A DNA stretch of 64,000 nt. It comes from Lactiplantibacillus nangangensis (lineage in GTDB: Bacteria > Bacillota > Bacilli > Lactobacillales > Lactobacillaceae). The translations under genes were made by a program, and so were the position numbers. Below, piece by piece: positions 5,345-53,230 of the stretch; position 1 is the stretch's first letter; every line of letters begins with the position of its first letter. Below the pieces are notes generated by a model, which saw only the letters and a program-made list of their open reading frames with translations, ran no database searches and was not told the origin of the DNA. The DNA is taken from assembly GCF_005405065.1 (NCBI RefSeq), contig NZ_BJDI01000006.1:1-64000 (forward strand), in the 5' to 3' direction.

Positions 5345-5480
5345 GGTCGGTTCGTTTAGGGCTCAGCCGTGGCATTTGACTTAGCGCGGTGGTTTGCCGC
5401 GGTTAGTCAAAAATCGGCTTTCGAGACCGCACTTTGGCTCGAAAACGATTCACAGCGTTCCAGCCCTAAACGAACCGACC
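5345..5480 (+). ncRNA. Multi-arm structured element, copy 1
   Basis: A perfect 19-bp closing stem (5345-5363 with 5462-5480) encloses three further helices. Arm 2 is 5375-5389 with 5397-5411 (loop TGGTTTG). Arm 3 is TTTCGAG/CTCGAAA (5419-5425, 5438-5444) around the loop ACCGCACTTTGG. Arm 4 is a short AACG/CGTT hairpin. The copy at 53104-53230 has the same layout and the same arm-3 loop, but different, still complementary stem sequences. It lies 145 bases upstream of the phosphodiesterase gene. The family is not one I recognise. Confidence 0.6.
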
Positions 5481-5625
5481 GGTAGGCGGCAAGCAACCTC
5501 AATTCACTGATCCCTAACTACTGCTGACATCGGGTGAAATTCTGCGGTATAATTTTAAGTATCTTCTTGAAATATAATCGTATCATTAAAATTGAACCAT
5601 AAATAGGACAAAAGGGGCGGTAACA

Positions 5626-6933
5626 ATGGCAACAAATCAGCATTTAGTGATCATTTCGTTAGATGCGCTGGGCTTTCGCGATTTGCGTGAGCACCAAAGC
5701 GAGTTACCTGTATTAAATCAGTTGATGACTGGTGGCGCTTGGGTCAAGTCAGTGACAGGAATTTATCCAACGCTCACGTATCCATCTCACACGACGATCA
5801 TTACCGGACAATATCCAGCAGTCCACGGCATCGTTAACAACACCAAACTGCAGCCAAAACGGCGGTCACCAGATTGGTATTGGTATCAGAAAGATGTCAA
5901 AGTATCAACCTTGTATGATCTAGCGCGGCAGCAAAAATTAACGACGGCCGCTTTTTTGTGGCCGGTTACAGCTGGTAGCAAGATTACATACAACTTGGCA
6001 GAAATCTTCCCCAACCGCATTTGGACGAATCAAGTCCTCGTTTCGCTGAAAGCGAGCTCGCCGTTGTTCTTACTTAAAATGAACCAGAAATACGGCCATT
6101 TACGCAATGGTATCAAACAACCTCAGCTGGATGCTTTTATTACGGCTTGTGCAGTCGACACCTTGACAAACAAAAAGCCTAACTTAACGATGATTCATTT
6201 GGTCGATATGGACAGTATGCGGCATCGTTATGGCGTTCGGTCAAAAGAAGCCATGGCGGCATTGCACCGTTTGGACCAGCATGTTGGTCAATTGATCGAT
6301 GCCACCAAGCGTGCTGGTACGTTTGCAGATACAAACTTTGTCATTTTAGGTGACCATTATCAAATTAACGTCGATCATATGATTCATTTGAACACGTTGT
6401 TTGCGCAAAAAGGCTGGTTAACGCCACGCCAAGATCAGATGTTTGAGGACGATTGGTCCGTAATGGCCAAAACCGCTGATGGTTCGACTTACATTTACAC
6501 GCGCGACTTTGACGAGTTAGACGACTTGAAAAAATTAATTGAAAACGTTGAAGGTGTCGAAACGGTCATTACTGGTGAGCAGGCTGCCAAACGCGGCGCT
6601 GACCCAGCCTGCGCCTTGATGGTGGAAGCGAAGGAAGGCTATTACTTTACGGATGAGAGTCGCCGGCCGTTAGTGGTTGAACCAGTTCATCCTGCCACGT
6701 TGGGACAGCCAGATCGCTATCATGGCGTCCATGGGTATGATCCCACGAAGCCGGACTACCAAACGACCTTGCTCTTTAATGGTCCAGCCGTTAAAGCTGG
6801 TGCCCGGATTGAAGCCGCCAACTTAGTTGATGAAGCCCCAACTTTTGCGCGCTTATTAGGGTTACATTTTGACGGCCCCATGCCTGGACAGTGTTTAGAT
6901 GGCATCTTTAAGGAGACCGCGAATGAAATTTAA
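5626..6933 (+). CDS. Alkaline-phosphatase superfamily nucleotide pyrophosphatase/phosphodiesterase
   Basis: 435 aa. D13 in IISLDALG is the first metal ligand. YPTLTYPSHTTIITG (from residue 47) is the NPP-type nucleophile motif, with T51 as the likely nucleophile. HLVDMDSMRHRYG and LGDHYQIN supply further Asp/His ligands, and HGYDP near the C-terminus completes the site. No signal peptide or membrane segment is visible, so the protein should be cytoplasmic, unlike many NPPs. It probably hydrolyses a phosphodiester or phosphomonoester; the substrate is not visible from sequence. The downstream transporter start lies inside the 3' end of this gene, so the two are translationally coupled. ATG preceded by AAAGGGG. 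Confidence 0.8.
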   Translation: MATNQHLVIISLDALGFRDLREHQSELPVLNQLMTGGAWVKSVTGIYPTLTYPSHTTIITGQYPAVHGIVNNTKLQPKRRSPDWYWYQKDVKVSTLYDLARQQKLTTAAFLWPVTAGSKITYNLAEIFPNRIWTNQVLVSLKASSPLFLLKMNQKYGHLRNGIKQPQLDAFITACAVDTLTNKKPNLTMIHLVDMDSMRHRYGVRSKEAMAALHRLDQHVGQLIDATKRAGTFADTNFVILGDHYQINVDHMIHLNTLFAQKGWLTPRQDQMFEDDWSVMAKTADGSTYIYTRDFDELDDLKKLIENVEGVETVITGEQAAKRGADPACALMVEAKEGYYFTDESRRPLVVEPVHPATLGQPDRYHGVHGYDPTKPDYQTTLLFNGPAVKAGARIEAANLVDEAPTFARLLGLHFDGPMPGQCLDGIFKETANEI

Positions 6934-8170
6934 CAAACCACAATGGAGTTGGATCTTTTATGATTGGGCAAATTCCGGTTATGGCATTATTGTCACCACG
7001 GCGGTCTTACCGGTTTATTTTAAAGCGATTGCGCAGAGCAACGGTGTCTCCGCGGCGAATGCGACGGCCTATTGGGGTTACGCCAACAGTATCGGGACGT
7101 TATTAGTGTCGATTTTGGCACCGGTATTGGGTGCTTTGGCGGATTATCCAAAAGCTAAGAAGCGGATGCTCAATATTTTTTCGATGGTCGGCATGTTGAT
7201 GACGCTGGGATTGAGTTTGGCGCCCACGAGTGCGTGGAAATGGTTGCTGGGTATCTATATCTTGTCGATCATTGGTTACTCAGGTGGGAACCTCTTTTAT
7301 GACAGTTTTCTGACCGACGTGGCGACGGACCAAGAAATGGATCGGATTTCATCTTATGGTTATGGTTTTGGGTATCTAGGTGGCGTCTTAGCTTTCATTC
7401 TGTTCTTAGTCTTGCAATTAACGAGTGGCTTCGGTCAACTCTCAAGCTATGGCGTGGCACGCTGGAGTTTCGTGTTAGCGGCCGTTTGGTGGATTATTTT
7501 CTATATTCCTTTGTTGAAAAATGTGCGCCAAGTTTATGCGCTGAAACCAAATGCGCATCCGGTGGCGTCCAGCTTCAAACGGGTCTGGTCGACCTTGAAA
7601 CACATTAAGAAATATCAGGCTGCTGCTTGGTTCTTGGTGGCCTATTTCTTCTATATTGATGGCGTCGATACGATTTTTACGATGGCGACTTCAATTGGGA
7701 TGGACATGGGCATCACGACAACCACGCTAATGCTCGTCTTGTTAGTCGTGCAACTAGTGGCGTTTCCATTTTCAATTCTGTATGGTTGGATTGCGCGTAA
7801 AACGTCTACGCGGACGGGCATCCTAATTGGCATCGTTATTTATCTCGGAATCTGTTTGTACGCGTTGCGGTTAGAATCTGTGACGGACTTTTGGATTTTA
7901 GCGGTGTTAGTTGGGACGAGTCAAGGTGGGATTCAAGCGCTCAGTCGGTCATACTTTGGCCGCTTGATTCCTAAACAATCGGGGAGTGAATTCTTCGGCT
8001 TTTATAATATCCTTGGCAAGTTTTCGGCCGTCATGGGTCCAGTATTAGTTGGTATCGTGACGCAGATGACTGGTAAATCTACGATTGGTGCGGCTTCATT
8101 AAGCGTGCTGTTTCTGATTGGGTTGGTCATCTTCTTGGCATTGCCACATTTAAGTGAAAAAAGATCTTAA
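6923..8170 (+). CDS. Major facilitator transporter of the UMF1/Atg22-like group
   Basis: 415 aa with about 12 hydrophobic segments. The N-terminus WSWIFYDWANSGYG and the ALADYPKAKKRML loop after the second helix are characteristic of bacterial UMF1 transporters, related to the vacuolar effluxer Atg22. I chose ATG at 6923 because AGGAG precedes it; it overlaps the phosphodiesterase end by 11 bases. Coupling suggests the transporter moves the substrate or product of that enzyme, but direction and solute are unknown. A terminator follows. Confidence 0.8.
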   Translation: MKFNKPQWSWIFYDWANSGYGIIVTTAVLPVYFKAIAQSNGVSAANATAYWGYANSIGTLLVSILAPVLGALADYPKAKKRMLNIFSMVGMLMTLGLSLAPTSAWKWLLGIYILSIIGYSGGNLFYDSFLTDVATDQEMDRISSYGYGFGYLGGVLAFILFLVLQLTSGFGQLSSYGVARWSFVLAAVWWIIFYIPLLKNVRQVYALKPNAHPVASSFKRVWSTLKHIKKYQAAAWFLVAYFFYIDGVDTIFTMATSIGMDMGITTTTLMLVLLVVQLVAFPFSILYGWIARKTSTRTGILIGIVIYLGICLYALRLESVTDFWILAVLVGTSQGGIQALSRSYFGRLIPKQSGSEFFGFYNILGKFSAVMGPVLVGIVTQMTGKSTIGAASLSVLFLIGLVIFLALPHLSEKRS

Positions 8171-8175
8171 ATTCA

Positions 8176-8209
8176 AGTCATTTTGGCGTTAAGCTGAGAT
8201 GGCTTTTTT
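8176..8209 (+). terminator. Terminator after UMF1 transporter
   Basis: AGTCATTT pairs with AGATGGCT (two wobbles), followed by a T run. Confidence 0.65.
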
Positions 8210-8215
8210 ACTGTC

Positions 8216-8268
8216 TTGTATTTCATAGTGGAACCGGATACAATCATAGTAATAAAAACGTTTTTATT
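8216..8268 (+). promoter_or_regulatory. Promoter and LacI-type operator of the regulator gene
   Basis: TTGTAT (8216-8221), 17 bp, TACAAT (8239-8244). Just downstream, at the expected transcript start, is a perfect 18-bp palindrome AATAAAAACGTTTTTATT (8251-8268). A near-identical palindrome precedes the kinase gene, so autoregulation by the LacI protein is likely. Confidence 0.8.
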
Positions 8269-8281
8269 TAGGGTGACTAAT

Positions 8282-9283
8282 TTGAAAAAAGCAACGATTA
8301 AGGATGTCGCGCGGTTAGCGCAAGTTTCCATTTCAACCGTTTCAAATGCGCTCAACGGGGTCAATGTGGTCAAACCGCAAACCAAAGCGCGGGTGTTAAA
8401 AGCGGCTCACCAATTGAATTACTCGCCTAATTTGATGGGGCGGCAGTTACGCTCAGGACAGACCAATACGATTGGGGTCTTTACCGATAGTGTGGCTGGA
8501 CCGTATTTTTATCAGTTGATTGAAACCATTTCAAAAACGTTGGCAGATCAACATTATGGCATGAGCGTCACGTTAGCGAATAATCATACGGCACTCATGA
8601 ATGGGTTACTCGGCAACACTTGTGATGGGGCCATCATTTTTGATCATCGGTTGGACGACCGTGACTTGGAACATTTAGCTGGGCAAGGGATTCCCGTGGT
8701 AATGCTGGATCGACCCGTTTCTGGGGAGCAGCTCAGCAGTATTGTGTTTGATTCATTTAATGAAAGTTATCTGGCGACTCAGTACTTGCTACAGCTTGGG
8801 CATCGGCAACTGGGATACTTAGCTGGTTATGATCATAATCGAGATAATCATGAACGGTTCGCTGGTTTTAAACAGGCAATTTTGAATGCCGGTTTAAGCT
8901 TAGCTGATACGGTTGTTTTGAAAGGACTCTTCGAGGAAAAGGCCGCTTTTCAAGCGCTGCAAACTTATTTGGCGACCCCAACGCGGCAACCTGTTTCTGC
9001 GTTTCTAGCTGGGAATGATTTGAGCGCACTTGGCGCAATCAAGGCGATTACGGCGGCAGGTTATAAGGTACCTAACGACTATAGTGTGATTGGTTTCGAC
9101 GATATCGAAATGGCCAGTTATTTTCAGCCGGCCTTAACGACGGTGCGGAATCCAATCACACAACAAGCCCAGCTGGCGGTTAAAGAACTGGTTGGGTTGT
9201 TAACGACCAAGGCTCGGGGACAGCAGCAAGTGTTGCCAGGCAAGCTGATAGTTCGGTCTTCGACAGCCAAGTTTCAAAATTAA
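8282..9283 (+). CDS. LacI-family transcriptional repressor of the beta-glucoside cassette
   Basis: 334 aa starting at TTG 8282 behind AGGGTG. The LacI helix-turn-helix is at residues ~5-27 (IKDVARLAQVSISTVSNALN), with the hinge helix region up to ~58, then a periplasmic-binding-protein-like effector domain (NTIGVFTDS, VVMLDRPV, AGNDLSALGAI, IGFDDIEMA). It is flanked by two matching palindromes, one over its own start region and one before the kinase/GH1 pair. This supports local repression relieved by a sugar ligand. The ligand is probably a beta-glucoside or its phosphate, from context only. Confidence 0.9.
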   Translation: MKKATIKDVARLAQVSISTVSNALNGVNVVKPQTKARVLKAAHQLNYSPNLMGRQLRSGQTNTIGVFTDSVAGPYFYQLIETISKTLADQHYGMSVTLANNHTALMNGLLGNTCDGAIIFDHRLDDRDLEHLAGQGIPVVMLDRPVSGEQLSSIVFDSFNESYLATQYLLQLGHRQLGYLAGYDHNRDNHERFAGFKQAILNAGLSLADTVVLKGLFEEKAAFQALQTYLATPTRQPVSAFLAGNDLSALGAIKAITAAGYKVPNDYSVIGFDDIEMASYFQPALTTVRNPITQQAQLAVKELVGLLTTKARGQQQVLPGKLIVRSSTAKFQN

Positions 9284-9297
9284 TTTTTTAAAAAATA

Positions 9298-9313
9298 ATA
9301 AAAGCGCTTTTAT
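9298..9313. promoter_or_regulatory. LacI-type operator before kinase-GH1 operon
   Basis: 16-bp perfect palindrome ATAAAAGCGCTTTTAT. It shares the AAAA-N-CG-N-TTTT layout of the 8251-8268 operator. Confidence 0.75.
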
Positions 9314-9338
9314 ACACGCTTGATTTGGAGGAAGTAAA

Positions 9339-11712
<2,374 letters not shown>

Positions 11713-11746
11713 GTGGTTGGCTACGAACAGTTATCTGAACAAAGCT

Positions 11747-11796
11747 AAAACAGCAGTCTCGAAAATTGAGTTAAAATTCCGAGACTGCTGTTTTTT
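11747..11796. terminator. Bidirectional terminator between GH1 and DyP genes
   Basis: A 15-bp perfect stem AAAACAGCAGTCTCG with its complement, 18-nt loop, T run. It serves the convergent genes on both sides. Confidence 0.9.
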
Positions 11797-11810
11797 AGCG
11801 CTAGTTGAAT

Positions 11811-12767
11811 TTAATGAAAGTCGTCTTCGGCGATTTGGGCCAACAGGTCGCGTGACGGAATGAAGAACAACTGTCCTGAAAGAATCGTTGAAAAGGTTAA
11901 CAGGAAGTCGTTTTGAGCCAACATGTTTTGTAACATGCCTTTGGTCACTGACCAGTGCCGAGCATAGCCGATGAAATAAGTTCCAGTATTGCCAGCGGCG
12001 GGATTGGAGAACGGCACATTCATGCGGACGATTTTTTGTTCAACGCCGTCGATTTCAAATTTGGACGCAACGTTGTGAGCGTTCTTAAATTTGTCTTCAT
12101 CGGCGAGTTCGAAATCACTGAACTTCTCACGACCAACCGCTTTTTCTTGTTCTTCGGTGTGCAGGTGATCCCAAACGGGCATGTCATGCTGCCATTTCTG
12201 AGCAAATGCGTAAGAACCGTTTTCAAATTTGGGGTCTTCATCACCAACTAAGGCGTAGTCGGCCGCGTCTTCCACTGCCGGCGCTTCGGTGCCATCAATA
12301 AAACCAATAATGGCACGGCCTTCGAAGTAACGAAAACCCTTAGTTTCATCCACTACCGTTGTAATTGCATCTAAGACGCGTCGGAATTGCGTTTGGCATT
12401 CGTACACGACCGCTTCGTTACTGGCGCGAATGTGAAAGAATAAATCACCCGCCGTAGCTGGCATCGTATAGTCGGGCCCCGATAACGTGGTATAAGTTTC
12501 AAGCTCGTGGGGTTTCGGGGCGTTCGGGAAGAGGTAGTCCCAAGCGGCATTACTGATACCGATGCTCACTTTGAGTTGTGTGCCGGTTTCCGGCTTGGCA
12601 TCGCGGATGCGCAATGAACGGATGATGGCTTGAGAACGGTCGGCAAATTCTTGGAAAACGGCTTGAGCTTGTTGCTGATTTTCGCGGGTCAGGTTAAGAA
12701 CGGTGAATTGAACGTGTTCGCCGACGTCTTTCCAAACGTCTTGCGCGTGAGCTGGTGTGATTGGCAT
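11811..12767 (-). CDS. DyP-type heme peroxidase
   Basis: 318 aa from ATG 12767, which has GGAGGGA at good spacing; the longer upstream frame lacks a ribosome site. GFIDGTEAP (about residue 155) is the conserved GxxDG motif carrying the distal Asp of dye-decolorizing peroxidases. Later FIGYARHW and FFIPSRDLLAQI match the C-terminal heme pocket region. No Tat signal, so it is cytoplasmic, as in the short P/B-type DyPs. Uses H2O2 to oxidise bulky organic substrates; the physiological substrate in lactic acid bacteria is unknown, and heme must be acquired from outside. Monocistronic. Confidence 0.9.
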   Translation of the reverse strand: MPITPAHAQDVWKDVGEHVQFTVLNLTRENQQQAQAVFQEFADRSQAIIRSLRIRDAKPETGTQLKVSIGISNAAWDYLFPNAPKPHELETYTTLSGPDYTMPATAGDLFFHIRASNEAVVYECQTQFRRVLDAITTVVDETKGFRYFEGRAIIGFIDGTEAPAVEDAADYALVGDEDPKFENGSYAFAQKWQHDMPVWDHLHTEEQEKAVGREKFSDFELADEDKFKNAHNVASKFEIDGVEQKIVRMNVPFSNPAAGNTGTYFIGYARHWSVTKGMLQNMLAQNDFLLTFSTILSGQLFFIPSRDLLAQIAEDDFH

Positions 12768-12906
12768 GAATGATCCCTCCAGATTGATTGATAGCCTAAG
12801 CGTAGCGGTTATCACTGACAGCGTCAATCAAGGACCATTGTCTTTTCAACGTGGCTGATTGGTCGGCCTTGGCGAGGGTTAATTCAGTTGTTGAACGAGT
12901 GTTTGA

Positions 12907-13413
12907 TCACAAATTAGTGTTATTATTTCGATTGTCAAACACGAGTGATTTTGTTTCTAATAGTTTAAAGTTAAGGCACATTTTTTTAAAGAAAGGAACT
13001 TTTTTAACTGTGGTGTTGTTATAAACAGAGTGTGCTTGTTTTATAATTTGTACTTCTCGTGGACGAAGATAGTTAAGTTCATTCATTAGCATCAAGTATT
13101 TGTTTAAATCACGCTTTTTTTCAGTCTCTAAGTCTATTTGACGCCAGTTGGTTTTACTAACTGGAATCATATCATTGATGAGCAGAAAACTAATTGGATC
13201 CTTGTCAATATTAATCCTATTCCAGATTTGTAAAGCCAACCGGCGATTGGTACGCTTACCTTGTTTGGCTGATTCTAGCGGTGCAAAGTAAGTAAAATTA
13301 TTTACACTAAGTAGGATACCAACGTATGGCCGTCGTTCTTTGTTCCAAAGTACGCGAGTATCGAATTGTCTTAAATATTTGATATAAGTATCGTCAATAT
13401 AGACTAATTTCAT
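12907..13413 (-). CDS. Type III toxin-antitoxin toxin, ToxN/AbiQ-family endoribonuclease
   Basis: 168 aa, close to the usual 170-185 aa. The central RPYVGILLSVNNFTYFAPLE segment followed by S-A-K (residues ~28-50) is the ToxN/AbiQ hallmark. Conserved KDPISFLLINDMIPV (~residue 90) and a basic C-terminal half (KKVPFFKKMC) also fit. Family members are RNases that process their own antitoxin RNA and otherwise cleave cell RNA, causing growth arrest or abortive infection by phage. Upstream on the same strand are a terminator and three 35-nt direct repeats, the standard toxI-terminator-toxN order. The 35-nt period matches the lactococcal AbiQ antitoxin better than the 36-nt Pectobacterium ToxI. The gene is AT-rich compared with its neighbours, suggesting horizontal gain. 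Confidence 0.88.
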   Translation of the reverse strand: MKLVYIDDTYIKYLRQFDTRVLWNKERRPYVGILLSVNNFTYFAPLESAKQGKRTNRRLALQIWNRINIDKDPISFLLINDMIPVSKTNWRQIDLETEKKRDLNKYLMLMNELNYLRPREVQIIKQAHSVYNNTTVKKVPFFKKMCLNFKLLETKSLVFDNRNNNTNL

Positions 13414-13433
13414 TGCTTTCCCCCAAAAAAAGT

Positions 13434-13461
13434 AATAAAAAAAGGGCTGATGTCCAGCCCT
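13434..13461 (-). terminator. Leaky terminator between antitoxin repeats and toxin gene
   Basis: Minus strand: AGGGCTG-GACAT-CAGCCCT, then about eight T. In type III systems this terminator sets the excess of antitoxin RNA over toxin mRNA. Confidence 0.85.
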
Positions 13462-13464
13462 ACT

Positions 13465-13595
13465 AAAGTTCTCACTTACGGTAGAGAATCACCAATTTTA
13501 AAGTTCTCACTTACGGTAGAGAATCACCAATTTTAAAGTTCTCACTTACGGTAGAGAATCACCAATTTTTGTGTAAAAACCATATCCATAACCAC
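13465..13595 (-). ncRNA. Type III antitoxin RNA with three 35-nt repeats
   Basis: Three identical 35-nt units at 13465-13499, 13500-13534 and 13535-13569, directly abutting with no spacers. On the minus strand each unit contains GGTGATTCTCTACCGTAAGT with a short loop flanked by complementary bases able to form a pseudoknot. Transcription would start near 13588 and stop at the hairpin before the toxin gene. Each unit is expected to be cut out by the toxin and to bind and silence it. Confidence 0.85.
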
Positions 13596-13624
13596 ACTAT
13601 ACGATATCAAGATGAAAAAGTAAA
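13596..13624 (-). promoter_or_regulatory. Promoter of the antitoxin RNA
   Basis: Read on the minus strand: TTTACT (13624-13619), a 17-bp spacer and TATAGT (13601-13596), a good sigma-A promoter placed just ahead of the repeats. Confidence 0.8.
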
Positions 13625-13653
13625 CCAAATACTTTCAACACAATCAAATCAAT

Positions 13654-15009: not shown

Positions 15010-15105
15010 GAAAATAGTCCTTTCTTTCTACAATTAGTTACTTTATTATAGTATACTGTTAATTTAATTAAACCTTTAGGTCGATATTTATAGGAGAAAA
15101 ATTTA

Positions 15106-15798
15106 TTGAAGCCAATTTATCGTTTTTTCGTACAACCACAAATTAATACTGATACTAAGTCAATCTTTGGTTATGAATTACTGATGAAACAATGGACGCC
15201 AGAAGGCTGGCGTTTACCGGAGTCATTTTCAGCCATTGATCCGCAGATCATCGCGGACCTATTAGTTGAATCGACGCGTGTATTGTCATTAAAAGTGCGC
15301 TACTGCTCGGTTAACGTGAGTCGTGAACAGCTGATGACAACGTCCATTGCGGCGGCAATTATTAAGAGTCAGGAACAACTTTATCCCACCAAATTAACGG
15401 TTGAATTAACTGAAGATGATGGTCCGCAAAAGTACACCATCGCTGAATTATTGCCACAACTAAAAACATTCTTAAGCAAAGGGATGCAACTCTCATTGGA
15501 CGATGTTGGGACCGGTGATAATTATTTTAATGAAATTCAAGATTTATTACCACTTGTTTCAGAATTGAAATTCGCCTTGCAGAACTTTAACAAACAATTT
15601 AAAGATCCCAATATCCAAAAGAAAATTCATTTCTGGCACGCCATTAGCCAAGAATACGGCTTACGGATGGTGCTAGAAGGTATTGAAGACCATGAAGATA
15701 ACCAATTGAGCAAGCAATTAGGCATTAAGCTCAAGCAAGGTTACTATTTCAGTCGGCCACAATTATTAAAGTTACCACAAGATGCACAATTAGCTTAA
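15106..15798 (+). CDS. Stand-alone EAL-domain protein, probable c-di-GMP phosphodiesterase
   Basis: 230 aa, an EAL domain alone, starting at TTG 15106 behind TAGGAG. Catalytic and metal-binding positions are largely retained: ELL (for EAL) near residue 24, NVS near 69, VELTEDD near 102, the DDVGTG loop near 137, a lysine in ELKFAL, LEGIED (for the loop Glu) and QGYYFSRP at the C-terminus. No membrane or sensor domain is attached. It should linearise cyclic di-GMP, but no GGDEF synthase is in this window. It lies between the NADH oxidase and the small antitoxin-like gene, with its own terminator. Confidence 0.85.
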   Translation: MKPIYRFFVQPQINTDTKSIFGYELLMKQWTPEGWRLPESFSAIDPQIIADLLVESTRVLSLKVRYCSVNVSREQLMTTSIAAAIIKSQEQLYPTKLTVELTEDDGPQKYTIAELLPQLKTFLSKGMQLSLDDVGTGDNYFNEIQDLLPLVSELKFALQNFNKQFKDPNIQKKIHFWHAISQEYGLRMVLEGIEDHEDNQLSKQLGIKLKQGYYFSRPQLLKLPQDAQLA

Positions 15799-15803
15799 AG
15801 CTC

Positions 15804-17574: not shown

Positions 17575-17577
17575 TCG

Positions 17578-42984: not shown

Positions 42985-42996
42985 GATTTAATCGAT

Positions 42997-43029
42997 AAGT
43001 CCTGAGTGGTTCGCTACTTGGGGCTTTTC
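42997..43029 (+). terminator. Terminator after YhgE gene
   Basis: AAGTCC / GGGCTT plus inner AGT/ACT pairing, followed by TTTT. Confidence 0.65.
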
Positions 43030-43157
43030 GTTTGCCCAAATGGCCCCAGCAAACAGTTAGCAGTTTGCGAACAGCAACGCTTAGTTTATGGCCTAAGTGT
43101 GGTATGCTTATTTGTTGTCACAGTGAATTTTAATTTTCTTATTTTGGAGGCGCAATT

Positions 43158-44909: not shown

Positions 44910-46696
44910 TGGCAGAACGTCAATCTGTTTGGGCGCGGAGCATGCCGGTCAAAGAGCAGCTAACCGTTATTCGCCGGTTGTTACCTTACGCCAAGCCATT
45001 CAAGTGGTTTTTTGTTACGACGATTTTAATGTCGGGTTTAATTAGTTTAGTTAATATTTATTTACCGAAAGTCTTACAATTGTTTATTGACCGCTATTTA
45101 CGGACCGGGCATGCGACGATTGCGATTATGTGGTATTTCGCGGGCTTATATTTCTTTGGCATGATTGTACGGGTCACCATGCAATTCTTCCAGAACTACA
45201 CGAGTACGATGGGTGCCGAGTACATGTTGGAAAATGTGCGACGCCAAATGTTCAAAAAGTTGCATCGGATGGGCATGCGTTATTTCGACCAAGTCCCAGG
45301 TGGGTCGATTTTGTCACGGTTGACCAATGATACGATGTCGTTTTCGAACTTCTGGGCACTATTTAATACGCTCTTTACTGCGTTTTTCGCCGTGATCTCG
45401 TCGTTTTTGGCGATGTATTTTACGGATAGTGAAATTGCCTTATGGTTGCTCGTTTTTATGCCGTTCTTAGCGGTATCTGTTTGGTATTATCAACGTTACA
45501 GTTCGCGGGTCTACCGGCGAATGCGGGAACGTTTGAGTGAATTGAATACCAAATTAAGCGAAGCGATTACTGGAATCAGTGTGATTCAACAATTCCGACA
45601 AGAGCGACGGATCAACGATGAATTTGATACGACGAATAATGCTTACTTCAAGACACGTCAAGCGATGATTCGGACCAACTCACTGTTATTGAGTCCAATC
45701 ATTAACTTGTTTTATGCCTTAGGAACCGTCATGATTTTGGGCTTCTTTGGGGTTCGTGGCCTCAATGGTTACGTGGCAGCTGGGGTCGTTTACGCGTTTA
45801 TCACTTATCTGGATAATTTCTATAATCCGATGACGCAAATGATGGATAACCTTTCTGACTTCCAAGATGGGGTCGTTGCTGGTTCACGGGTCTTACGAGT
45901 GATGGACGACCCAACGATTGCACCAGCCCAGCACGCTGATCCAGCGGCAAAAATTACGCGTGGCAAAATTGAATTTAAACACGTGACCTTTGCCTATGAT
46001 GGGGTCAATCCAGTGTTGAAAGACGTCTCTTTTGTCGCTGAACCTGGTCAAACCGTGGCCTTAGTTGGTCAGACTGGGAGCGGTAAAACGTCGACAATCA
46101 ATGTTTTGATGCGTTTCTATGAATTTCAGTCTGGTGAGGTCTTGATCGATGACCGTGATATTCGTGAGTATCCAGCTAAAGAGTTGCGGCAAAAGCTGGG
46201 TCTCGTTTTGCAGGAACCATTCATGTTTTATGGTGACATTAAGTCAAATATTCGGATGTTTGATGACACGATCTCGGATGAGCAAGTGGAAGCTGCGGCA
46301 AAATTTGTGACTGCGGATGAATTTATTGATGAGTTGCCACAAAACTATGACTCACGAGTGATTGAACGTGGTGCCAGTTATTCTTCGGGCCAACGTCAAC
46401 TGATTTCATTTGCGCGGACGATCGTGACGGATCCTAAAATCTTGATTTTGGATGAAGCGACGGCGAACGTGGATACGGAAACCGAAGAGATGATTCAGAC
46501 CGGATTAAGTCGGATTCAACAGAACCGGACGACAATTGCGATCGCGCACCGGTTGTCCACGATTCAAAACGCCGACCTGATCTTAGTCTTGAATCAAGGT
46601 CAAATTGTGGAACGTGGGACTAATGATGACTTGTTAGCGCAACAGGGTTATTACTACGATATGATTCAATTACAAAACTCGGCGCACGCTAAGTAG
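44909..46696 (+). CDS. Multidrug ABC exporter half-transporter, catalytic-site subunit
   Basis: 595 aa. Six helices, then Walker A GQTGSGKTS (~386), signature YSSGQRQLIS (SSGQ in place of SGGQ) and Walker B ILILDEATANVD with the catalytic Glu. Combined with the neighbour, one ATP site is canonical (this subunit's Walker B with the other's LSGGQ) and one is weak, as in LmrCD. Probably expels drugs or lipids. Translationally coupled to the upstream subunit; GGAAGGGGCGG precedes the start. Confidence 0.92.
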   Translation: MAERQSVWARSMPVKEQLTVIRRLLPYAKPFKWFFVTTILMSGLISLVNIYLPKVLQLFIDRYLRTGHATIAIMWYFAGLYFFGMIVRVTMQFFQNYTSTMGAEYMLENVRRQMFKKLHRMGMRYFDQVPGGSILSRLTNDTMSFSNFWALFNTLFTAFFAVISSFLAMYFTDSEIALWLLVFMPFLAVSVWYYQRYSSRVYRRMRERLSELNTKLSEAITGISVIQQFRQERRINDEFDTTNNAYFKTRQAMIRTNSLLLSPIINLFYALGTVMILGFFGVRGLNGYVAAGVVYAFITYLDNFYNPMTQMMDNLSDFQDGVVAGSRVLRVMDDPTIAPAQHADPAAKITRGKIEFKHVTFAYDGVNPVLKDVSFVAEPGQTVALVGQTGSGKTSTINVLMRFYEFQSGEVLIDDRDIREYPAKELRQKLGLVLQEPFMFYGDIKSNIRMFDDTISDEQVEAAAKFVTADEFIDELPQNYDSRVIERGASYSSGQRQLISFARTIVTDPKILILDEATANVDTETEEMIQTGLSRIQQNRTTIAIAHRLSTIQNADLILVLNQGQIVERGTNDDLLAQQGYYYDMIQLQNSAHAK

Positions 46697-46739
46697 AACT
46701 GTGTTAAGCTGGACGTAAAATGAACGTGAGGTGGCGTGA

Positions 46740-46874
46740 ATGTTACGAAAGTTAGCCGTTTTAACTGCTGGTGCCATGTGGTTGTTGAGTGGATTTAACT
46801 TGGTGATTGCAGTTTTGCGAGTCCGAGAGTCACCGTATCCTAAGAAGATTAAAGTTAAGGTCAAATTAAAGTAA
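46740..46874 (+). CDS. 44-residue single-helix membrane peptide
   Basis: ATG 46740 with GAGGTGG nine bases upstream, 44 codons, TAA at 46872-46874. The first 27 residues form one hydrophobic helix (KLAVLTAGAMWLLSGFNLVIAVL) and the tail is strongly basic (RVRESPYPKK then alternating Lys/Val). It is 43 bases after the ABC exporter and before a terminator, so probably the last gene of that operon. Too short for family assignment. It could modulate the exporter, as small membrane peptides often do; this is inference. Confidence 0.65.
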   Translation: MLRKLAVLTAGAMWLLSGFNLVIAVLRVRESPYPKKIKVKVKLK

Positions 46875-46924
46875 ACAGCGTGAACGGCACTTTATTGTCC
46901 GTTTTGATCATAATTATTAGTAGC

Positions 46925-46953
46925 GGTTGGAGAAATCCAACCTCTTTTTTTTA
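46925..46953 (+). terminator. Terminator of ABC exporter operon
   Basis: GGTTGGA-GAAA-TCCAACC, then a C-containing T run. Confidence 0.85.
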
Positions 46954-47147
46954 GCAGTAAATTTATTCAAAAATATAAAAATAAACACGCTAGTTTTCAA
47001 GATTTGTGACGCGTACAATAGAGTTATTACAAATTTGTTGGTTGCGTCACTCATGTATAGGACAGTGATAAGCTGGTTAATGAAAATTTCCAGTCAAAAA
47101 CTGACAACGTTTAAAGAGATGATAGTGGAAGTGGTGAGTATTAACTG

Positions 47148-48326
47148 ATGCGGCAAACAACGCGTAACTTTAACTGTTATTTAGGCAGTATGGCGATTAC
47201 GTTCTTTGGATTTTATGGGTTTATGTATTTGGTTTCCGTGCAATTAATTGAAGCAACCGGAAGCCCGAATTTGTTGGGGCACGTCTTGGCATTAACAATG
47301 GCACCAGCCTTGGTGTTGAATTTGGTGGCGGGGATCCTGATTGAACGGACCAATCCCAAAATTGTTATGTTAGTGACTGACTTATTGACTGGGCTACTCT
47401 TTGTTGGGGCGGCCGTTATGATGGCTAATCCGACATGGCAAGTCATGGTTTTAGCGACGGTTTCAGTTGTCAATAAGGTCATTGGGGTCTTTTACAAACT
47501 AGGTAATAAAACGATTGTGCCGCAATTATTTCCCCCAACGCAGATTATGAAAGTGAATGGTGTTCAGACGCAAGTTCGGCAAGTGGCGATTATTAGTGCT
47601 TCGATGATCATAGCTGGTTTGCTGTTGGTGATTTCTGCGCGGTGTTTGATTTTAGTCATGGGATTGGCATTTTTAGGCTCCGCTTGGTTAGATCATCAGT
47701 TTCAGTTACGCCCACAGGCAGTTAGTGAAACAGTCGTTCGGCCTAAATTAGCCCCTGCTTGGCGGCTTTTTTGGCATCGCCCTGATTTAGCAAAATTAAC
47801 CAGCCTGGCAATTATCGGTTGTTTAGCGGATGCAATCGTTGCGGTATTTGTTCCTTGGCTCGTCATAACTACTTGGCAGTCGAAGCTTGCTTTGAGTGGT
47901 TATTTGGGATGTGAAGCGGCCGGCATTATTATGGCACCACTAATTAAGCGTTGGGGTCCAACCCTAGCGATGACTAAAATCAGCTATGGGTTACCGTTGA
48001 GCTTGGGATTACTAGTGCCATCGCCACCGTTACTAGCTATTGGGATGGGGATGTTAGGGTGTTTGCGCGGCTTATTTAATTTGAAATTTTATACGACTTT
48101 ACAAACGGGCGTCCCAGTCGCATTTGTCAGCCGCCTCTTAGCTCTGACGCTAGTTTTTACAGATGGCACGACGGCTTTAGGGGCCTATTTAGCCCCACAA
48201 TTGGTGAAATGGACGGGGTCATGGGCTCTAGTTGTGCTAGGAAGCGGCCTACTTTTAGCGACTGGTCTGATTCAACTGGTTTTCAGAAATCAGCCGGTTG
48301 ATCAGGCCGTTCAGGAACCAGATTGA
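47148..48326 (+). CDS. MFS transporter (12-helix, DHA1/efflux-like)
   Basis: 392 aa with about 12 hydrophobic segments. The loop-2/3 region LVAGILIERTNPKIVMLVTDLLTG is a relaxed motif A of the efflux group that includes macrolide-type exporters. Conserved charged residues are fewer than in well-known families. Function likely efflux; substrate unknown. The start ATG follows GAAGTGGTGAG. It stands alone with no linked regulator. Confidence 0.8.
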   Translation: MRQTTRNFNCYLGSMAITFFGFYGFMYLVSVQLIEATGSPNLLGHVLALTMAPALVLNLVAGILIERTNPKIVMLVTDLLTGLLFVGAAVMMANPTWQVMVLATVSVVNKVIGVFYKLGNKTIVPQLFPPTQIMKVNGVQTQVRQVAIISASMIIAGLLLVISARCLILVMGLAFLGSAWLDHQFQLRPQAVSETVVRPKLAPAWRLFWHRPDLAKLTSLAIIGCLADAIVAVFVPWLVITTWQSKLALSGYLGCEAAGIIMAPLIKRWGPTLAMTKISYGLPLSLGLLVPSPPLLAIGMGMLGCLRGLFNLKFYTTLQTGVPVAFVSRLLALTLVFTDGTTALGAYLAPQLVKWTGSWALVVLGSGLLLATGLIQLVFRNQPVDQAVQEPD

Positions 48327-48439
48327 TTTATTTTTAAATTTTTCAGGATAAACACTTGCCTTAGACCAACTAGAAGCTAGTAAAGTAATCAACGTAGTCT
48401 TAATTAGCATGGTTATTTGGAAAAGGAAGTTTTGATCAG

Positions 48440-49306
48440 ATGAAGAATATTAACCAACAATTATTAACTGGTGAACGGGCGTTATTTAAGGCGCACGATT
48501 TACACATTGAAAATAGCACTTTTGCTAACGGCGAGTCACCATTAAAAGAAAGCCGCAACATTGAATTGGAACAATCAATTTTTAAGTGGAAATACCCACT
48601 TTGGTACAGTCGTCATATTCGGGTCAATAACTCGATTTTTGAAGAGATGTCACGGTCTGGTATTTGGTATACCGATGATATTACGATTACGAACAGTACG
48701 CTCCAAGCGCCTAAATTATTCCGGCGGGCAAGTCATATTAAGCTAGATCATGTGCATATGCCACATGCTGAAGAAACGTTGTGGAACAGTCACGACATTG
48801 AAATTCATGATGTCCAAGCCGCGGGTGATTATTTTGGCATGAATAGCGAAAATATTCAGGTTCGTGATTTTGACTTAGTCGGGAACTATGCGTTTGATGG
48901 GGCTAAAAACATCGAGATCCACAACGCAACGTTAATGACGAAGGATGCGTTATGGAACTGTGAGAATGTCACAGTTTATGATTCAAAAATAGTTGGTGAA
49001 TATTTAGGTTGGAATTCTAAAAATGTTCGCTTTGTAAACTGTACGATTGAAAGTGATCAAGGCCTCTGTTACATGGACGGGCTGACACTTGAAAACTGCA
49101 CGTTATTAAACACTGATTTGGCCTTTGAATACTGTAAAGATATTGATGCGGATATCGTTTCAAGCATCGACAGTGTTAAGAATCCAATCAGCGGTAAGAT
49201 TCATGCGACTGCGATTCAAAAAATCATCATGGACGACCCAGAAATCGATCCGCATCAAGCGGTGATTTCTGTGGACAATGAAAGCCGTGCCCGCCATGCC
49301 GTATGA
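48440..49306 (+). CDS. DUF3737 right-handed beta-helix-like protein
   Basis: 288 aa. LTGERALFKAHDLHIENSTFANGESPLKES at the N-terminus is the standard DUF3737 opening. The rest is a run of short repeated strands (for example IELEQSIFKWKYPLWYSRHIRV, NSHDIEIHDVQAAGDYFGMNS) with Asn/Asp turns, consistent with a pectate-lyase-like parallel beta-helix. Common in Lactobacillales with no known activity. It overlaps the aminotransferase gene, so the two are co-translated. GGAAAAGGAAG precedes the ATG. Confidence 0.85.
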   Translation: MKNINQQLLTGERALFKAHDLHIENSTFANGESPLKESRNIELEQSIFKWKYPLWYSRHIRVNNSIFEEMSRSGIWYTDDITITNSTLQAPKLFRRASHIKLDHVHMPHAEETLWNSHDIEIHDVQAAGDYFGMNSENIQVRDFDLVGNYAFDGAKNIEIHNATLMTKDALWNCENVTVYDSKIVGEYLGWNSKNVRFVNCTIESDQGLCYMDGLTLENCTLLNTDLAFEYCKDIDADIVSSIDSVKNPISGKIHATAIQKIIMDDPEIDPHQAVISVDNESRARHAV

Positions 49307-50465
49307 TTTTGATACCGTGATCGACCGCCGTCACACGAATTCCGCAAAGTGGGATGTTAAACCCGGTGAATTACCAATGTGGATCGCCGATATGGATTTT
49401 CAGACGGCGCCAGAGATTACTGCGGCCTTAAAGCAGCGGGCAGCGTTTGGTATTTTCGGCTATGAAGAGATCCCCACTGAATACTATGAGGCCGTTGCCG
49501 ATTGGTGGGCGACTGAGCATCATTTTCGACCACAAATCGATTGGCTGATGTTCTGTACCGGTGTCGTGCCAGCAATTTCGTCAATTGTGCGTAAAATGAC
49601 CGCGCCTGGAGATAACATTTTGGTGCAAGCGCCGGTTTATAACATGTTCTATCATTCAATTGAAAATAATGGCCGGCACACTTTATCAAGTGATTTAGTT
49701 GAACGTGATGGTCAATATACAATTGACTTTGACGATTTAGCTCAGAAGATGGCTGAACCACTGACGACCATGATGATTTTATGCAATCCACAGAATCCGA
49801 TTGGGATAGTCTGGTCACGAGCAGACTTACAACGAATCGGCGAGCTAGCATTAAAACACCATGTGTTAGTATTAGCCGATGAAATTCATTGTGATTTGAC
49901 GTTAAATGATCATGACTACACGCCATTTTCATCGTTGAGTGCTGATGTGGCAGCAAATAGTATTAGCTGTATTTCACCTAGCAAAACTTTCAACGTTGCG
50001 GCTCTACACGCAGCAACGTTGATTATGCCAGCGCAGGCGATTCGAGAACGCGTGAGTCGAGCCATCAATAACGATGAATTGGCTGAACCCAACTCGTTTG
50101 CGATTCCCGGGAGTTTAGCTGCTTATCGGGATGGTCATGCGTGGGTTGCTGAATTACGGACAAAAATTGCCGCCAATCAGCGTCAATTGCAGACTTTTGT
50201 GGCTGATAATCTGCCAGCAGTCAAAGTTATTGAAGCACAAGCAACGTATTTGATCTGGCTAGATATTAGCCAGGTTGCGGCGGATGCGAGTGATTTAGCC
50301 GATTTCATTCGTGCCAAGACCGGGCTGTTTCTATCTGCGGGTGATGTCTATCGTGGCGACGGGCAGCATTTTCTCAGAATCAACATTGCTTGTCCAACAG
50401 CAGAGTTGACGGATGGGCTGCAACGGTTGCAGGCTGGTATCGAAGCTTATATGACCCAAAACTAA
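49278..50465 (+). CDS. MalY/PatB-type PLP aminotransferase (probable cystathionine beta-lyase)
   Basis: 395 aa; an alternative ATG at 49296 would give 389 aa beginning PYDFDTV and may be the true start. Fold-type I PLP enzyme: MWIADMDFQTAP near the N-terminus, CNPQNPIG, LADEIHCDL (PLP-binding Asp), and SPSKTFNVAALH with the PLP lysine. These wordings belong to the MalY/PatB group, which cleaves C-S bonds of cystathionine or cysteine conjugates. The gene begins 29 bases inside the DUF3737 gene. Confidence 0.88.
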   Translation: MKAVPAMPYDFDTVIDRRHTNSAKWDVKPGELPMWIADMDFQTAPEITAALKQRAAFGIFGYEEIPTEYYEAVADWWATEHHFRPQIDWLMFCTGVVPAISSIVRKMTAPGDNILVQAPVYNMFYHSIENNGRHTLSSDLVERDGQYTIDFDDLAQKMAEPLTTMMILCNPQNPIGIVWSRADLQRIGELALKHHVLVLADEIHCDLTLNDHDYTPFSSLSADVAANSISCISPSKTFNVAALHAATLIMPAQAIRERVSRAINNDELAEPNSFAIPGSLAAYRDGHAWVAELRTKIAANQRQLQTFVADNLPAVKVIEAQATYLIWLDISQVAADASDLADFIRAKTGLFLSAGDVYRGDGQHFLRINIACPTAELTDGLQRLQAGIEAYMTQN

Positions 50466-50627
50466 ATGGTTAAAGGTGGTGTGCTGGTTATGGCTGAAAT
50501 AACTTGCGTGCTACTTTTTATTGGCTGATTTTCAGAACAGTTTAAACGATGACTTCCTTAAGATTTCCTTTTGAGTGGCCTTTTCGTTAAAATGAACTTA
50601 TTAAATCATGGTTAAGTAGGTGAGTTC

Positions 50628-51221
50628 ATGGAAATTGGAATTGTTGGTGCTGGCACTGTCGGTACCGTTTTAGCACAAACTTTTGCGCGCGGCGACAACC
50701 AAGTGAAACTCAGTCGGCACAGTGGTGTTGCGAGTTTAGTTCCCCGGCGCGCGGAATTTTCGCCCAAAGTAACGTTTGTAGAAGTCGAAGTAGCGTTGCA
50801 ACAACCGTTAGTTATTATTGCTGTCCCGTTTGAGCAAGCACCCGTGGTTTTACGGCAAGTGGCAGATTACGATCAGCGGATCGTGGTCGATGTTACGAAC
50901 CAATTTACGGCTGACTTTAAGAAAATTAAAACGGCACCATTAACTGGTAGTGAAGTGGTTGCACAAGCCGCCCACAATGCTCGCGTGATTAAGGCTTTCA
51001 ATACGTTGCCGCCAAAGTTTATGGATGGTCATGTGGTTGGTGAGGGTCGCCGGGTACTCTTTTATGCCGGTGACGATGTTGCCGCGAAGAAAGCCTTTGC
51101 GGCATTAGTGCGACCATTGAATTTTCGGCCCGTTAACTTAGGCAAGCTCAGACATGGTGGCAGTGTGATGCAAGTCGGTGGTGGCCTCGGCAACACGCAC
51201 TTTGTTCAAATCGAAGAGTAG
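50628..51221 (+). CDS. NADPH-dependent F420 reductase-like Rossmann protein
   Basis: 197 aa. N-terminal dinucleotide-binding IGIVGAGTVGTVLAQTFARG, LSRHSG in the NADP-phosphate position, VVDVTNQ, and VIKAFNTLPP. This pattern marks the NADP oxidoreductase, coenzyme F420-dependent family (COG2085). Lactobacilli do not make F420, so it probably reduces another substrate. TAGGTGAG precedes ATG. Monocistronic and convergent with the HAD gene. Confidence 0.8.
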   Translation: MEIGIVGAGTVGTVLAQTFARGDNQVKLSRHSGVASLVPRRAEFSPKVTFVEVEVALQQPLVIIAVPFEQAPVVLRQVADYDQRIVVDVTNQFTADFKKIKTAPLTGSEVVAQAAHNARVIKAFNTLPPKFMDGHVVGEGRRVLFYAGDDVAAKKAFAALVRPLNFRPVNLGKLRHGGSVMQVGGGLGNTHFVQIEE

Positions 51222-51241
51222 TATCATTCATTAGAAGTGTC

Positions 51242-51270
51242 AAAAAAGACGTCATGATGACGTCTTTTTT
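51242..51270. terminator. Bidirectional terminator
   Basis: AAAAAAGACGTCA-TGA-TGACGTCTTTTTT, a perfect 13-bp stem between convergent genes. Confidence 0.92.
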
Positions 51271-51953
51271 TAGTTCAGTAATAATTTTTCTAGTTGTTGA
51301 AAGTTATCCACAGTATAAGTCGGTTGATAACTTTTCGGATTAGGACGATGCTGTGGATTAAACCAAATATTTTTTAGTTGTGCGTGGATGGCACCGTTGA
51401 TATCTGAACCTAAGTTATCCCCAACCATGATGGTGTTGTCATGGGTCATGGCTGGATTCTGATCAAAAATTGCGGTAAAGAACTGCGGATCTGGTTTCGC
51501 TACGCCCAAGTCAGCCGAAATAAAGACCTGTGGAAAGTACTGAGCCAAGCCCGAGCCCTGTAAACGGCTTAACTGGGTCGTTTTCACGCCATTGGTACCA
51601 ACAATTAAGTTAAGTCCAGTTTGTTGTAGATTGGCCAATAAAGTGGTAGCACCGGGTAAAACGTAAAAGTTGTGATCTAGGATGGCACTGTATTCATGCT
51701 GCAAGGCAGGGCCGTTCACCGTCATGCCGAGCTGCTGAAAGACAACGGCAAACCGTTGATTCAGCAGGGGTTCTGGGTCCGCACCTTGTTCAATTTGTCC
51801 CCAAAGCCAATGATTATGGGCTTGATAGACCTGTAATCCGTGTTGTAAATCTGTAATACCATACTTTTTCAACAGGTAGGTGAGGCCTTCATGTTCCCCA
51901 CGACTAAAATCGAGCAGCGTATCGTCTAAATCAAAAATAACGTATTTTAGCAT
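51270..51953 (-). CDS. HAD-superfamily hydrolase, YjjG/YfnB type
   Basis: 227 aa. Motif I VIFDLDDTLLDF at residues 5-16, cap segment with an EHEGLTYLLKKYG opening, motif II IVGTNGV, motif III Lys in VAKPDPQFF and motif IV MVGDNLGSDINGA. YjjG-type enzymes dephosphorylate (often non-canonical) nucleoside monophosphates. It lies 15 bases after the esterase gene on the same strand, so the two are likely co-transcribed. Confidence 0.88.
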   Translation of the reverse strand: MLKYVIFDLDDTLLDFSRGEHEGLTYLLKKYGITDLQHGLQVYQAHNHWLWGQIEQGADPEPLLNQRFAVVFQQLGMTVNGPALQHEYSAILDHNFYVLPGATTLLANLQQTGLNLIVGTNGVKTTQLSRLQGSGLAQYFPQVFISADLGVAKPDPQFFTAIFDQNPAMTHDNTIMVGDNLGSDINGAIHAQLKNIWFNPQHRPNPKSYQPTYTVDNFQQLEKLLLN

Positions 51954-51968
51954 GTGGATAACTCTTTT

Positions 51969-52829
51969 CTAAACTAGTCGTTGAATTTGTTGGACCATGT
52001 CGTTAAATGACTCCTGATACGCGCCGGTCAATGAGACGGTAAAGCCATGCAGTGAGTTGGCATAGCGTTTAGTCGTGACTGGTGTATGCGCTAAGGCTAA
52101 ATGATGCCCAAAAGTTTCACCTTCAGGAGCCAACGTGTCATGATCAGCCGTGTGAATGACTGTCTGTGGAAAACCAACTAGTGATGGAACTGAGGCTAAC
52201 ACTGGTGAGACTTCTGGATTACCCAGCGGCGTGTTTGCACGATAGAAGCGATTAAACCGTTTTGCCTGTTCAGCAGAAATGACGGCGCCAGTTGGATAGG
52301 TCAGATCGTCCGGATCAGTATCTAAATCTAATGCCGGGTAGTCTAGAACGGCGAGATCTGCGACTGGTCGGCCAGCCTTGAGCGCTCGCATCTGAGTGCC
52401 GGCAACTAAATTACCACCGGCACTGTGGCCGATGAGAATGAGTTTCTGTGGGATTGCCGCACAGTAGTCCGAGTAATGTGCTTGGACCGCTTGGACGAGT
52501 TCATCGCAGGCATCTAACGCAGCTGGAAAAGGATGTTCCGGCGCTAATGGGTAGTCGAAGTCGAGCACTGTATATTGGGTCGCAATACCAATTCGTTTAC
52601 AGAAGTAGCTGTCATGGTCGTTGTGCAAATGCACAAAACCACTGCCATGGAAATCAATAATAATGCCTTTTGAAGGGACATAATTGGGTTCGTGAATGTA
52701 AAGCTTAGCGGTTTCACCTGAGCTTAATGGAAAGTTTTCAGTCCGTGTTCGTTCTGCGGCCCACTGTTCAGCCGTGATTGTTTTTTGACGCTTGTCATGA
52801 TTTTGTCGTTCTAAAGTTGCTTCGTTCAA
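51969..52829 (-). CDS. Alpha/beta hydrolase (hormone-sensitive-lipase-type esterase)
   Basis: 286 aa from TTG 52829, preferred because AAGGAGG lies nine bases before it. The oxyanion motif is IDFHGSGFVH (~residue 63, for HGGGF), the nucleophile elbow GHSAGGN (~residue 135), a later HTADHDTLAPEG (Asp) and NSLHGF (His). Cytoplasmic esterase for short acyl esters; substrate unknown. Followed by the HAD phosphatase gene in the same direction. Confidence 0.85.
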   Translation of the reverse strand: MNEATLERQNHDKRQKTITAEQWAAERTRTENFPLSSGETAKLYIHEPNYVPSKGIIIDFHGSGFVHLHNDHDSYFCKRIGIATQYTVLDFDYPLAPEHPFPAALDACDELVQAVQAHYSDYCAAIPQKLILIGHSAGGNLVAGTQMRALKAGRPVADLAVLDYPALDLDTDPDDLTYPTGAVISAEQAKRFNRFYRANTPLGNPEVSPVLASVPSLVGFPQTVIHTADHDTLAPEGETFGHHLALAHTPVTTKRYANSLHGFTVSLTGAYQESFNDMVQQIQRLV

Positions 52830-52859
52830 CGTGAAGGACCTCCTTGATAGGGTCATCAT

Positions 52860-53103
52860 ACAGCAACTTCGCTCAGTGTGGTATGCTTAAATGGTAAGAA
52901 TAGTCAGATAACGACTGACAGTTACTAAGAAAAAGTCGTCGGTTGGCCGTTTCTGACTAGTTGGTTGATAAAATTCTAGAATGGCATCGACCATTTAAAA
53001 AATGAGCTAGTACTCAGCTAAAACATCTCAATGGTCGTGGACACTTTAGTTGATTGTTAATGGGTAGCTTGATGTCATGGCTCAAGATGATTGAACGTCG
53101 GGC
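52860..53103. other. Gene-free stretch upstream of structured element
   Basis: GACCATT (about 52990) and AATGGTC (about 53030) form a loose inverted repeat around an AGCT-rich centre. Nothing codes here as far as I can see. Confidence 0.4.
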
Positions 53104-53230
53104 GGGTCAGAATTGGCTCAGTGGTGTTATTTATCTTAGTCGCTGGTTTTGCGGCTTAGATAAAGCCCGGCTTGTGAGACCGCACTTTGGCTCACAAACG
53201 TGGCCACCACGTTCCAGCCGATTCTGACCC
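53104..53230 (+). ncRNA. Multi-arm structured element, copy 2
   Basis: Closing stem GGGTCAGAATTGGCT (53104-53118) with 53216-53230, 15 bp including one U-G wobble that exists only on the plus strand. Arm 2 is 53130-53143 with 53151-53164 (loop TGGTTTT). Arm 3 is TTGTGAG/CTCACAA (53172-53178, 53191-53197) around ACCGCACTTTGG. Arm 4 is AACGTGG-CCA-CCACGTT. All four helices also exist in copy 1 with different but complementary sequences. It ends 70 bases before the acetyltransferase start. Confidence 0.6.

Follow-up and report, generated by a model that had tools for sequence, protein, structure and literature searches.

The 64,000-nt window analysed here (the whole stretch, positions 1 to 64,000 of contig NZ_BJDI01000006.1, RefSeq assembly GCF_005405065.1) comes from Lactiplantibacillus nangangensis and carries three related, branched elements. 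These are probably arms of small, non-autonomous units resembling miniature inverted-repeat transposable elements (MITEs), with a sense-strand fold that is kept by selection, most likely as RNA in read-through transcripts. An earlier note on this DNA had described two of the elements, both on the plus strand, and these were located and folded with the paired stems that it gave; the third, on the minus strand, had been overlooked. Three covariance models were used: R1, built from 11 type A copies of the same genome (hereafter 'own' copies); R2, built from 10 type C arms; and R3, trained on 61 rows that are mainly of types A and B but include a few longer types and one or more type C copies besides that of the window. 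The features of the window are as follows.

4898..5090, minus strand: type C arm, ~191 nt, with closing stem and three arms; its 5′ end faces the 5′ end of the arm at 5337
5091..5336, no strand: spacer of 246 bp between the head-to-head arms (coordinates from the R1 and R2 matches)
5337..5493, plus strand: type A arm, copy 1 of the earlier note, identified by its fold and by R1 (E 1.8e-35) and R3 (E 4.1e-35), being a training copy of both
53094..53245, plus strand: type A arm, copy 2 of the earlier note, identified by its fold and by R1 (E 2.8e-37) and R3 (E 3.7e-35), being a training copy of both

The arm at 4898-5090(-) was matched by R2 (E 1.1e-45; the copy belongs to the R2 training set, A7) and by R3 (E 1.7e-14), and is not among the matches in the window, at E up to 10, of R1, whose training copies are all of type A. 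A relationship between types A and C is seen in both directions: R1 matches nine type C copies among the fetched loci (E 1.7e-11 to 1.8e-8), and the arm at 5337-5493(+) is also matched by R2, built from type C only (E 1.2e-13). No partner arm for 53094-53245(+) was found with R1, R2 or R3.

Fold, covariation and spread of the arms

The arms are ~150-190 nt long and multi-branched. In types A and B a variable closing stem of ~14-19 pairs (19 bp in 5337-5493(+), where 5345-5363 pairs with 5462-5480) is followed, across an internal loop (TCA / GTTCCA), by an inner stem (GTGGTG/CACCAC in many copies) and two arms: arm 2, which often carries CTTAG/CTTAG, and arm 3, which terminates in an AGAC...GGCT hairpin with a bulged A. 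Type C has one arm more. What had been read as a small arm 4 and a CGTTCCAGCC exit actually belongs to structures already named: the 3′ sides of arm 3 and the inner stem, together with the internal loop. Of the 84 best distinct own copies, 12 have the loop ACCGCACTTTGG, which had been described as invariant (counted by alignment row the figure is 13 of 84, as one row is a duplicate), and the TGGTTTK loop of arm 2 is, by eye, not conserved across own copies. Other motifs are widely kept: of 84 own rows (the best 84 of the 105 rows of alignment A3, including two duplicates introduced by overlapping loci), 79 contain GCTCAG, 82 contain CGTTCCAG and 82 contain AGAC...GGCT. Motif conservation is quoted from own copies because the loci of alignment A11 (the 150 best copies of named loci from other genomes) were chosen by a pattern containing GCTCAG and CGTTCCAG, which 83 of its 150 rows match.

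The observation that both sides of the stems change together held up, with covariation far above chance in two alignments. In A10 (61 copies from the own genus and three other genera) 96.2% of cells are paired and double changes occur at 53 of 57 pairs, with 863 double-change cells against a shuffled mean of 219 and at most 93 when the structures were slid by 1-3 columns; its rows were fitted to the covariance model, which favours the structure. In an 11-copy MAFFT alignment, with a structure derived by RNAalifold from the same rows, there are double changes at 32 of 57 pairs (108 cells versus 34 shuffled). For the two plus-strand window copies folding z-scores were -8.4 and -8.6 for the sense and -9.1 and -6.9 for the antisense strand, and in each of the four cases 0 of 200 shuffles folded as well as the real sequence.

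The own genome contains ~176 non-overlapping elements, comprising 90 R1 matches (E up to 0.1) and the 86 of 125 R2 matches that score >80 bits, a total that may be low as the best 150 candidates were scored per search. The remaining R2 matches are weaker and largely antisense or cross matches, the palindromes yielding weak antisense matches with both R1 and R2. R1 has matches in 23 of 60 genomes, including 19 of 21 of the own genus (own genome counted). The covariance-model search of Lactobacillaceae suggested in the earlier note, run with R3, found the family in 128 of 397 sampled genomes and 15 of 40 genera (at most seven candidates scored per genome). In an order-wide sample 25 of 395 genomes had matches, the sole one outside the family being G058 with a single match (E 2.5e-5). 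An exact-pattern scan gave at least 108 stretches, of which 80 named loci were examined; among the matches listed are species of Lactiplantibacillus, Levilactobacillus, Lacticaseibacillus and Companilactobacillus and two Lactobacillus assemblies. Another family of the order has a distant fold of related appearance (G058:C1:1317449-1317620 and L072), in which AGAC...GGCT occurs together with a CCATGG / CTTTCC junction. Within the genus, G001 and G002 have no R1 match, yet G002 has two transposase relatives and four matches to the terminal repeat described below.

Paired units, insertion sites and ends

Among neighbouring elements less than 600 bp apart, a head-to-head arrangement was counted for 44 of 48 in the own genome and, among the matches listed for the 80 named loci of other genomes, for 58 of 63 (all 175 hits; 55 of 59 with 164 hits); neither set has a tail-to-tail case. 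With up to 900 bp allowed, 90 of the 176 own elements lie in head-to-head pairs. A unit would consist of two related folded arms, head-to-head with their 3′ tails outward, around a spacer of ~20-900 bp; such units appear to insert between genes and to turn over quickly. Each of the 90 units examined, 42 of them pairs and 48 solos, is intergenic by calls of open reading frames (ORFs) of at least 90 residues, a result favoured by ignoring ORFs <900 bp that overlap an arm. The intergenic and target-repeat counts cover 132 of the 176 own elements, with the pair C20:22454/22919, which spans two fetched stretches, entered as two solos. In the 86 units for which both neighbours were found, 80 sides face gene starts and 92 face gene ends (n = 172), in all combinations, at median distances of 195 bp and 98.5 bp, respectively.

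Insertion polymorphism is seen between relatives, with filled and empty sites in a comparison of four congeneric species, whose ~80% identity leaves exact insertion borders unreadable. Four of the seven units on ~120 kb of the window's contig (53094, 75187/75805, 101139/101594 and 106895/107245) correspond, in syntenic stretches of three congeneric species, to gaps of 15-128 bp with no intact element in two or three relatives; for units 88143 and 109725 the comparison is ambiguous. The site of 53094-53245 is empty in G011, G020 and G002, with only joined element ends in G009. The reverse case is provided by a G009 unit at 75713-76126 (gap of 523 in G009, as against 46, 44 and 61 in the other three). 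Some sites hold apparent relics. By eye, in G009 at the site corresponding to window positions 52860-53290 (L156) TTTAGCC is joined to GGCAGGCGGCAA, the hairpin apparently having been lost precisely, and comparable remnants, in which one hairpin or both are reduced, occur next to L122:7403, L128, L133:2001 and L191; the collapsed unit upstream of L191 still carries a duplication.

Copies with ~50-bp spacers end on both sides in CTAGCACCAA... A 16-bp terminal motif, derived from the short-spacer units themselves, is present at both ends of 17, one end of six and neither end of 14 of 37 such units, with 0 of 74 ends positive in a reversed-motif control; this count and that of duplications in named loci took in 164 of the 175 hits (11 left out). 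Perfect 9-of-9 direct repeats flank 3 of 42 own pairs (L085, L106 and L119) versus 0.2% of 820 mismatched pairs, and 3 of 57 pairs in the named loci versus 1.1% of 1115 controls; of the latter three, the repeats of L313 and L307 are in register, while that of L308 is not and is probably due to chance. In a long-spacer D-A unit (75187/75805; G000:C6:75187-75966) a perfect 8-mer direct repeat, CACGTTTC, seen without a control, lies beyond both ends and may represent target duplication in the long-spacer class.

Nine of the 21 genomes of the genus contain an 18-bp terminal form (up to two mismatches allowed), with 142 occurrences in G008 and 151 in G017. This form bounds two 958-bp insertion sequences in the own genome (one at C13:79264-80221), one with a 7-bp duplication, and a 988-bp insertion sequence in G020; these ends match those of the short-spacer units except for 1-2 of the 18 bp. 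The proteins encoded by these insertion sequences (289 and 293 residues) contain the DDE_Tnp_1_3 domain (E 4.3e-22 and 4.1e-21), which is typical of IS982, as are such ends. A third own copy (C15:44182-45048) is broken. The short-spacer (A-B) units have terminal inverted repeats, target-site duplication in a minority and an autonomous element with near-identical ends, and their mobility is well supported; they were most likely moved in trans by the transposase of the IS982-like element. The arms themselves do not seem to be part of that element, and the same fold is carried by units without those ends. The contention that these are not recently copied inverted-repeat elements is contradicted by the ~176 dispersed copies, by several blocks absent from relatives and, for the short-spacer units, by the terminal inverted repeats, a few target-site duplications and the IS982-like element of the same genome with its near-matching ends.

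Transposase relatives in G008 and G017 (E up to 1e-30) are mostly stop-interrupted, one of four being stop-free in G008 and none of one in G017. The interrupted examples (G008:C22:22656-23510 and G017:C32:27218-27994) come from the genomes that have the terminal repeat in the highest numbers, and the mover of those copies may have decayed. Searches by blastn gave no match to four queries among 72,556 plasmid records or to one query among 50,697 phage records, where divergent copies could escape, and a plasmid or phage origin was rejected on these grounds; the lack of a plasmid or phage copy contrasts with the mobility of the units.

An additional type of arm, D, is ~175-180 nt long, contains two AGAC/GGCT hairpins and was recognised at L102:188-368, L081:2189-2363, L100:1383-1563 and L115:1999-2180. 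In relatives, eight of nine C-D pairs have the two arms facing each other at a distance of 16-39 bp. Beside many own-genome type C arms type D looks truncated, and the tails of C-D units look, by eye, conserved further outward.

The selected strand and the form of the fold

The fold of one strand, the sense strand, is under selection. This had been proposed earlier and is borne out by strong covariation, a sense-strand excess of G-U over A-C and conserved unpaired motifs. Over all paired columns the ratio of G-U to A-C cells is 199:55 in the same best 84 rows of own copies, 143:32 in A10, 339:149 in A11 and, for type C, 39:10. Leaving out the columns in which one of the two is dominant (>40% G-U or >40% A-C) changes these ratios to 118:55, 107:32, 266:88 and 25:10, respectively. 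With dominated columns out and one count per 85%-identity cluster, own copies give 99:39 (43 clusters, p 1.7e-7), A10 96:24 (41 clusters, p 1.1e-11), A11 188:81 (78 clusters, p 2.9e-11) and type C 20:10 (five clusters, p 0.049), that is ~2-4:1 for types A and B, under a binomial that generously assumes independent columns and clusters and with covariance alignment able to favour G-U slightly. Two columns were dropped from A11, one rich in A-C (59 of 142 cells) and one rich in G-U; restoring them gives 225 G-U versus 101 A-C in the clusters. The statement, made for copy 2, that wobble pairs exist only on the plus strand is accordingly right as a tendency and wrong as a strict rule. Because a double-stranded cruciform predicts G-T and A-C at 1:1, the excess indicates selection on a single (sense) strand, of which RNA is the simplest form.

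Because the sense (outward) strand keeps its fold by compensatory change, the fold is presumably useful to the unit, and it most likely acts in RNA. Read-through from either side would always give one sense arm just before leaving the unit, and in a flanking mRNA the branched structure of this arm could stabilise, process or insulate the transcript, making the insertion tolerable. Indirect precedent for such an RNA effect may be drawn from Bacillus cereus, where passages of one study place about half of the dispersed repeat copies in mRNAs (84/165 and 62/155 in two strains) and correlate the bcr3 family with mRNA decay (PMC3446304), and from part of a review according to which MITE transcripts form stable structures and might serve as riboswitches or terminators (PMC10969869). 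A bolder version, which we put forward tentatively, is that the arm is a mobile RNA domain, one fold taken up by several lactobacillar transposon families and selected in the RNA of the neighbouring gene through a conserved host partner that would bind the bulged-A hairpin and the internal loop.

Alternatively, the fold might work in DNA, with the sense strand, either single-stranded during replication or transfer or extruded as a cruciform, aiding transposition or target choice as hairpin ends do elsewhere. The stems are strongly palindromic on both strands, all examined units are intergenic, and collapsed copies such as the G009 remnant at the 53-kb site (by eye) would be expected of unstable DNA hairpins. 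However, the IS982-like element with nearly the same ends has no arm in the sequence read, and a cruciform would produce equal G-T and A-C where 2-4:1 was seen after clustering in types A and B; folding of one DNA strand would fit, and we regard a role in DNA as rather unlikely. The arms could also be small RNA genes in their own right, transcribed outward from divergent promoters in the spacer and functioning in trans. The divergent layout and the conserved, unpaired GCTCAG and CGTTCCAG motifs of own copies would suit this; conservation upstream, however, stops ~6 nt before the arm, no common promoter was seen in the 30-54 bp spacers (by eye, without a promoter scan), and no T-run follows the inspected arms (by eye), all of which makes independent genes improbable. 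An intrinsic terminator was rejected on the same lack of a T-run (by eye, without a terminator scan).

A third possibility, that the arms are cis-regulatory, riboswitch-like leader RNAs of adjoining genes, draws on the covariation of the fold, which is of the kind seen in riboswitches, and on both plus-strand window copies lying upstream of a next ORF on the same strand (5626 and 53300). It is very improbable and was rejected, as units face gene starts and gene ends about equally; several sites are, moreover, empty in relatives with alignable flanks.

The interpretation of the elements as arms of MITE-like units with a fold selected as RNA has several observations weighing against it. Single-stranded DNA of one polarity would likewise produce a G-U excess, and the sense and antisense strands of the window copies fold about equally well. 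Clear target duplications are found only in a minority of copies, and repeats matching at 8 of 9 positions show no excess over the control (5 of 42 own pairs versus 10.5%). Among long-spacer units none of 62 has terminal repeats at both ends and one has them at one end; because these repeats are absent, the mobility of this class rests on the empty sites. No partner is recognised within 900 bp for 86 of the 176 own elements. Finally, at the 5-kb site of the window G009 and G011 hold a type C arm of their own. Independent insertions are possible there because a conserved promoter-like block sits on different sides of the type C arms, and the idea that the 5-kb type C arms of G000, G009 and G011 are orthologues with compensatory changes was dropped.

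Relation to known repeats

The absence of a recognised RNA family was confirmed, with none of 4227 Rfam families matching anywhere in the window at curated thresholds. At E up to 1 there was nothing for 4870-5120 and 53070-53270, and the sole sub-threshold match near copy 1 (5239-5293) lies outside the element and is at chance level. Within a limited paper collection, no description of the family was found. The genome sets of two studies (PMC2267715 and PMC1590033) included Lactobacillus johnsonii, and L. plantarum is not named in the passages available from them.

Dispersed intergenic repeats of the MITE-like kind are known. The form seen here, a unit of two outward-facing, branched, covarying arms that are common to units with different ends across a bacterial family, was found neither in this literature nor in Rfam. 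The strong, strand-specific covariation in each half of the unit, in several genera, implies selection on structure inside a transposable element, and the units offer a system, open to counting and testing, in which to ask what makes mobile repeats between genes retain a fold. They also mark many insertion sites in food-associated bacteria at which gene expression may be affected, and anyone screening lactobacilli for structured RNAs by covariance would otherwise mistake these repeats for ordinary regulatory RNAs.

MITE-like repeats are usually described as hairpins formed by their terminal repeats. The IS982-like insertion sequence (C13:79264-80221) shares the terminal 18 bp of the short-spacer units except at 1-2 places and differs in encoding the 289-residue transposase and in lacking an arm within the sequence that was read. 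Like the arms, REP sequences and REPINs are palindromic, high in copy number and extragenic; REPs measure 20-40 bp (PMC3733652) versus ~150-190 nt and several branches here. REP/BIME elements are characterised by a 20-40 bp palindrome, a tetranucleotide tag and a Y1 transposase, and in length, the feature compared, the arms do not fit them. The bcr1-bcr18 repeats of the Bacillus cereus group, compared by description, are also dispersed, with bcr1-3 MITE-like and bcr10 and bcr18 having conserved secondary structures, and the available passages on them make no mention of a paired head-to-head layout (PMC3446304). The bacterial MITEs RUP, NEMIS, ERIC, YPAL, Bcr1 and EFAR, named together in PMC3733652, are similarly short, non-coding, intergenic, multicopy and folded; the short-spacer units further resemble MITEs in having terminal repeats, target duplications at some copies and, in the same genome, an insertion sequence whose ends are almost identical to theirs. 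Unlike in those MITEs, each half of the unit here is a branched, covarying and strand-specific fold, and the same arms recur in units with different ends across 15 of the 40 sampled genera of one family.

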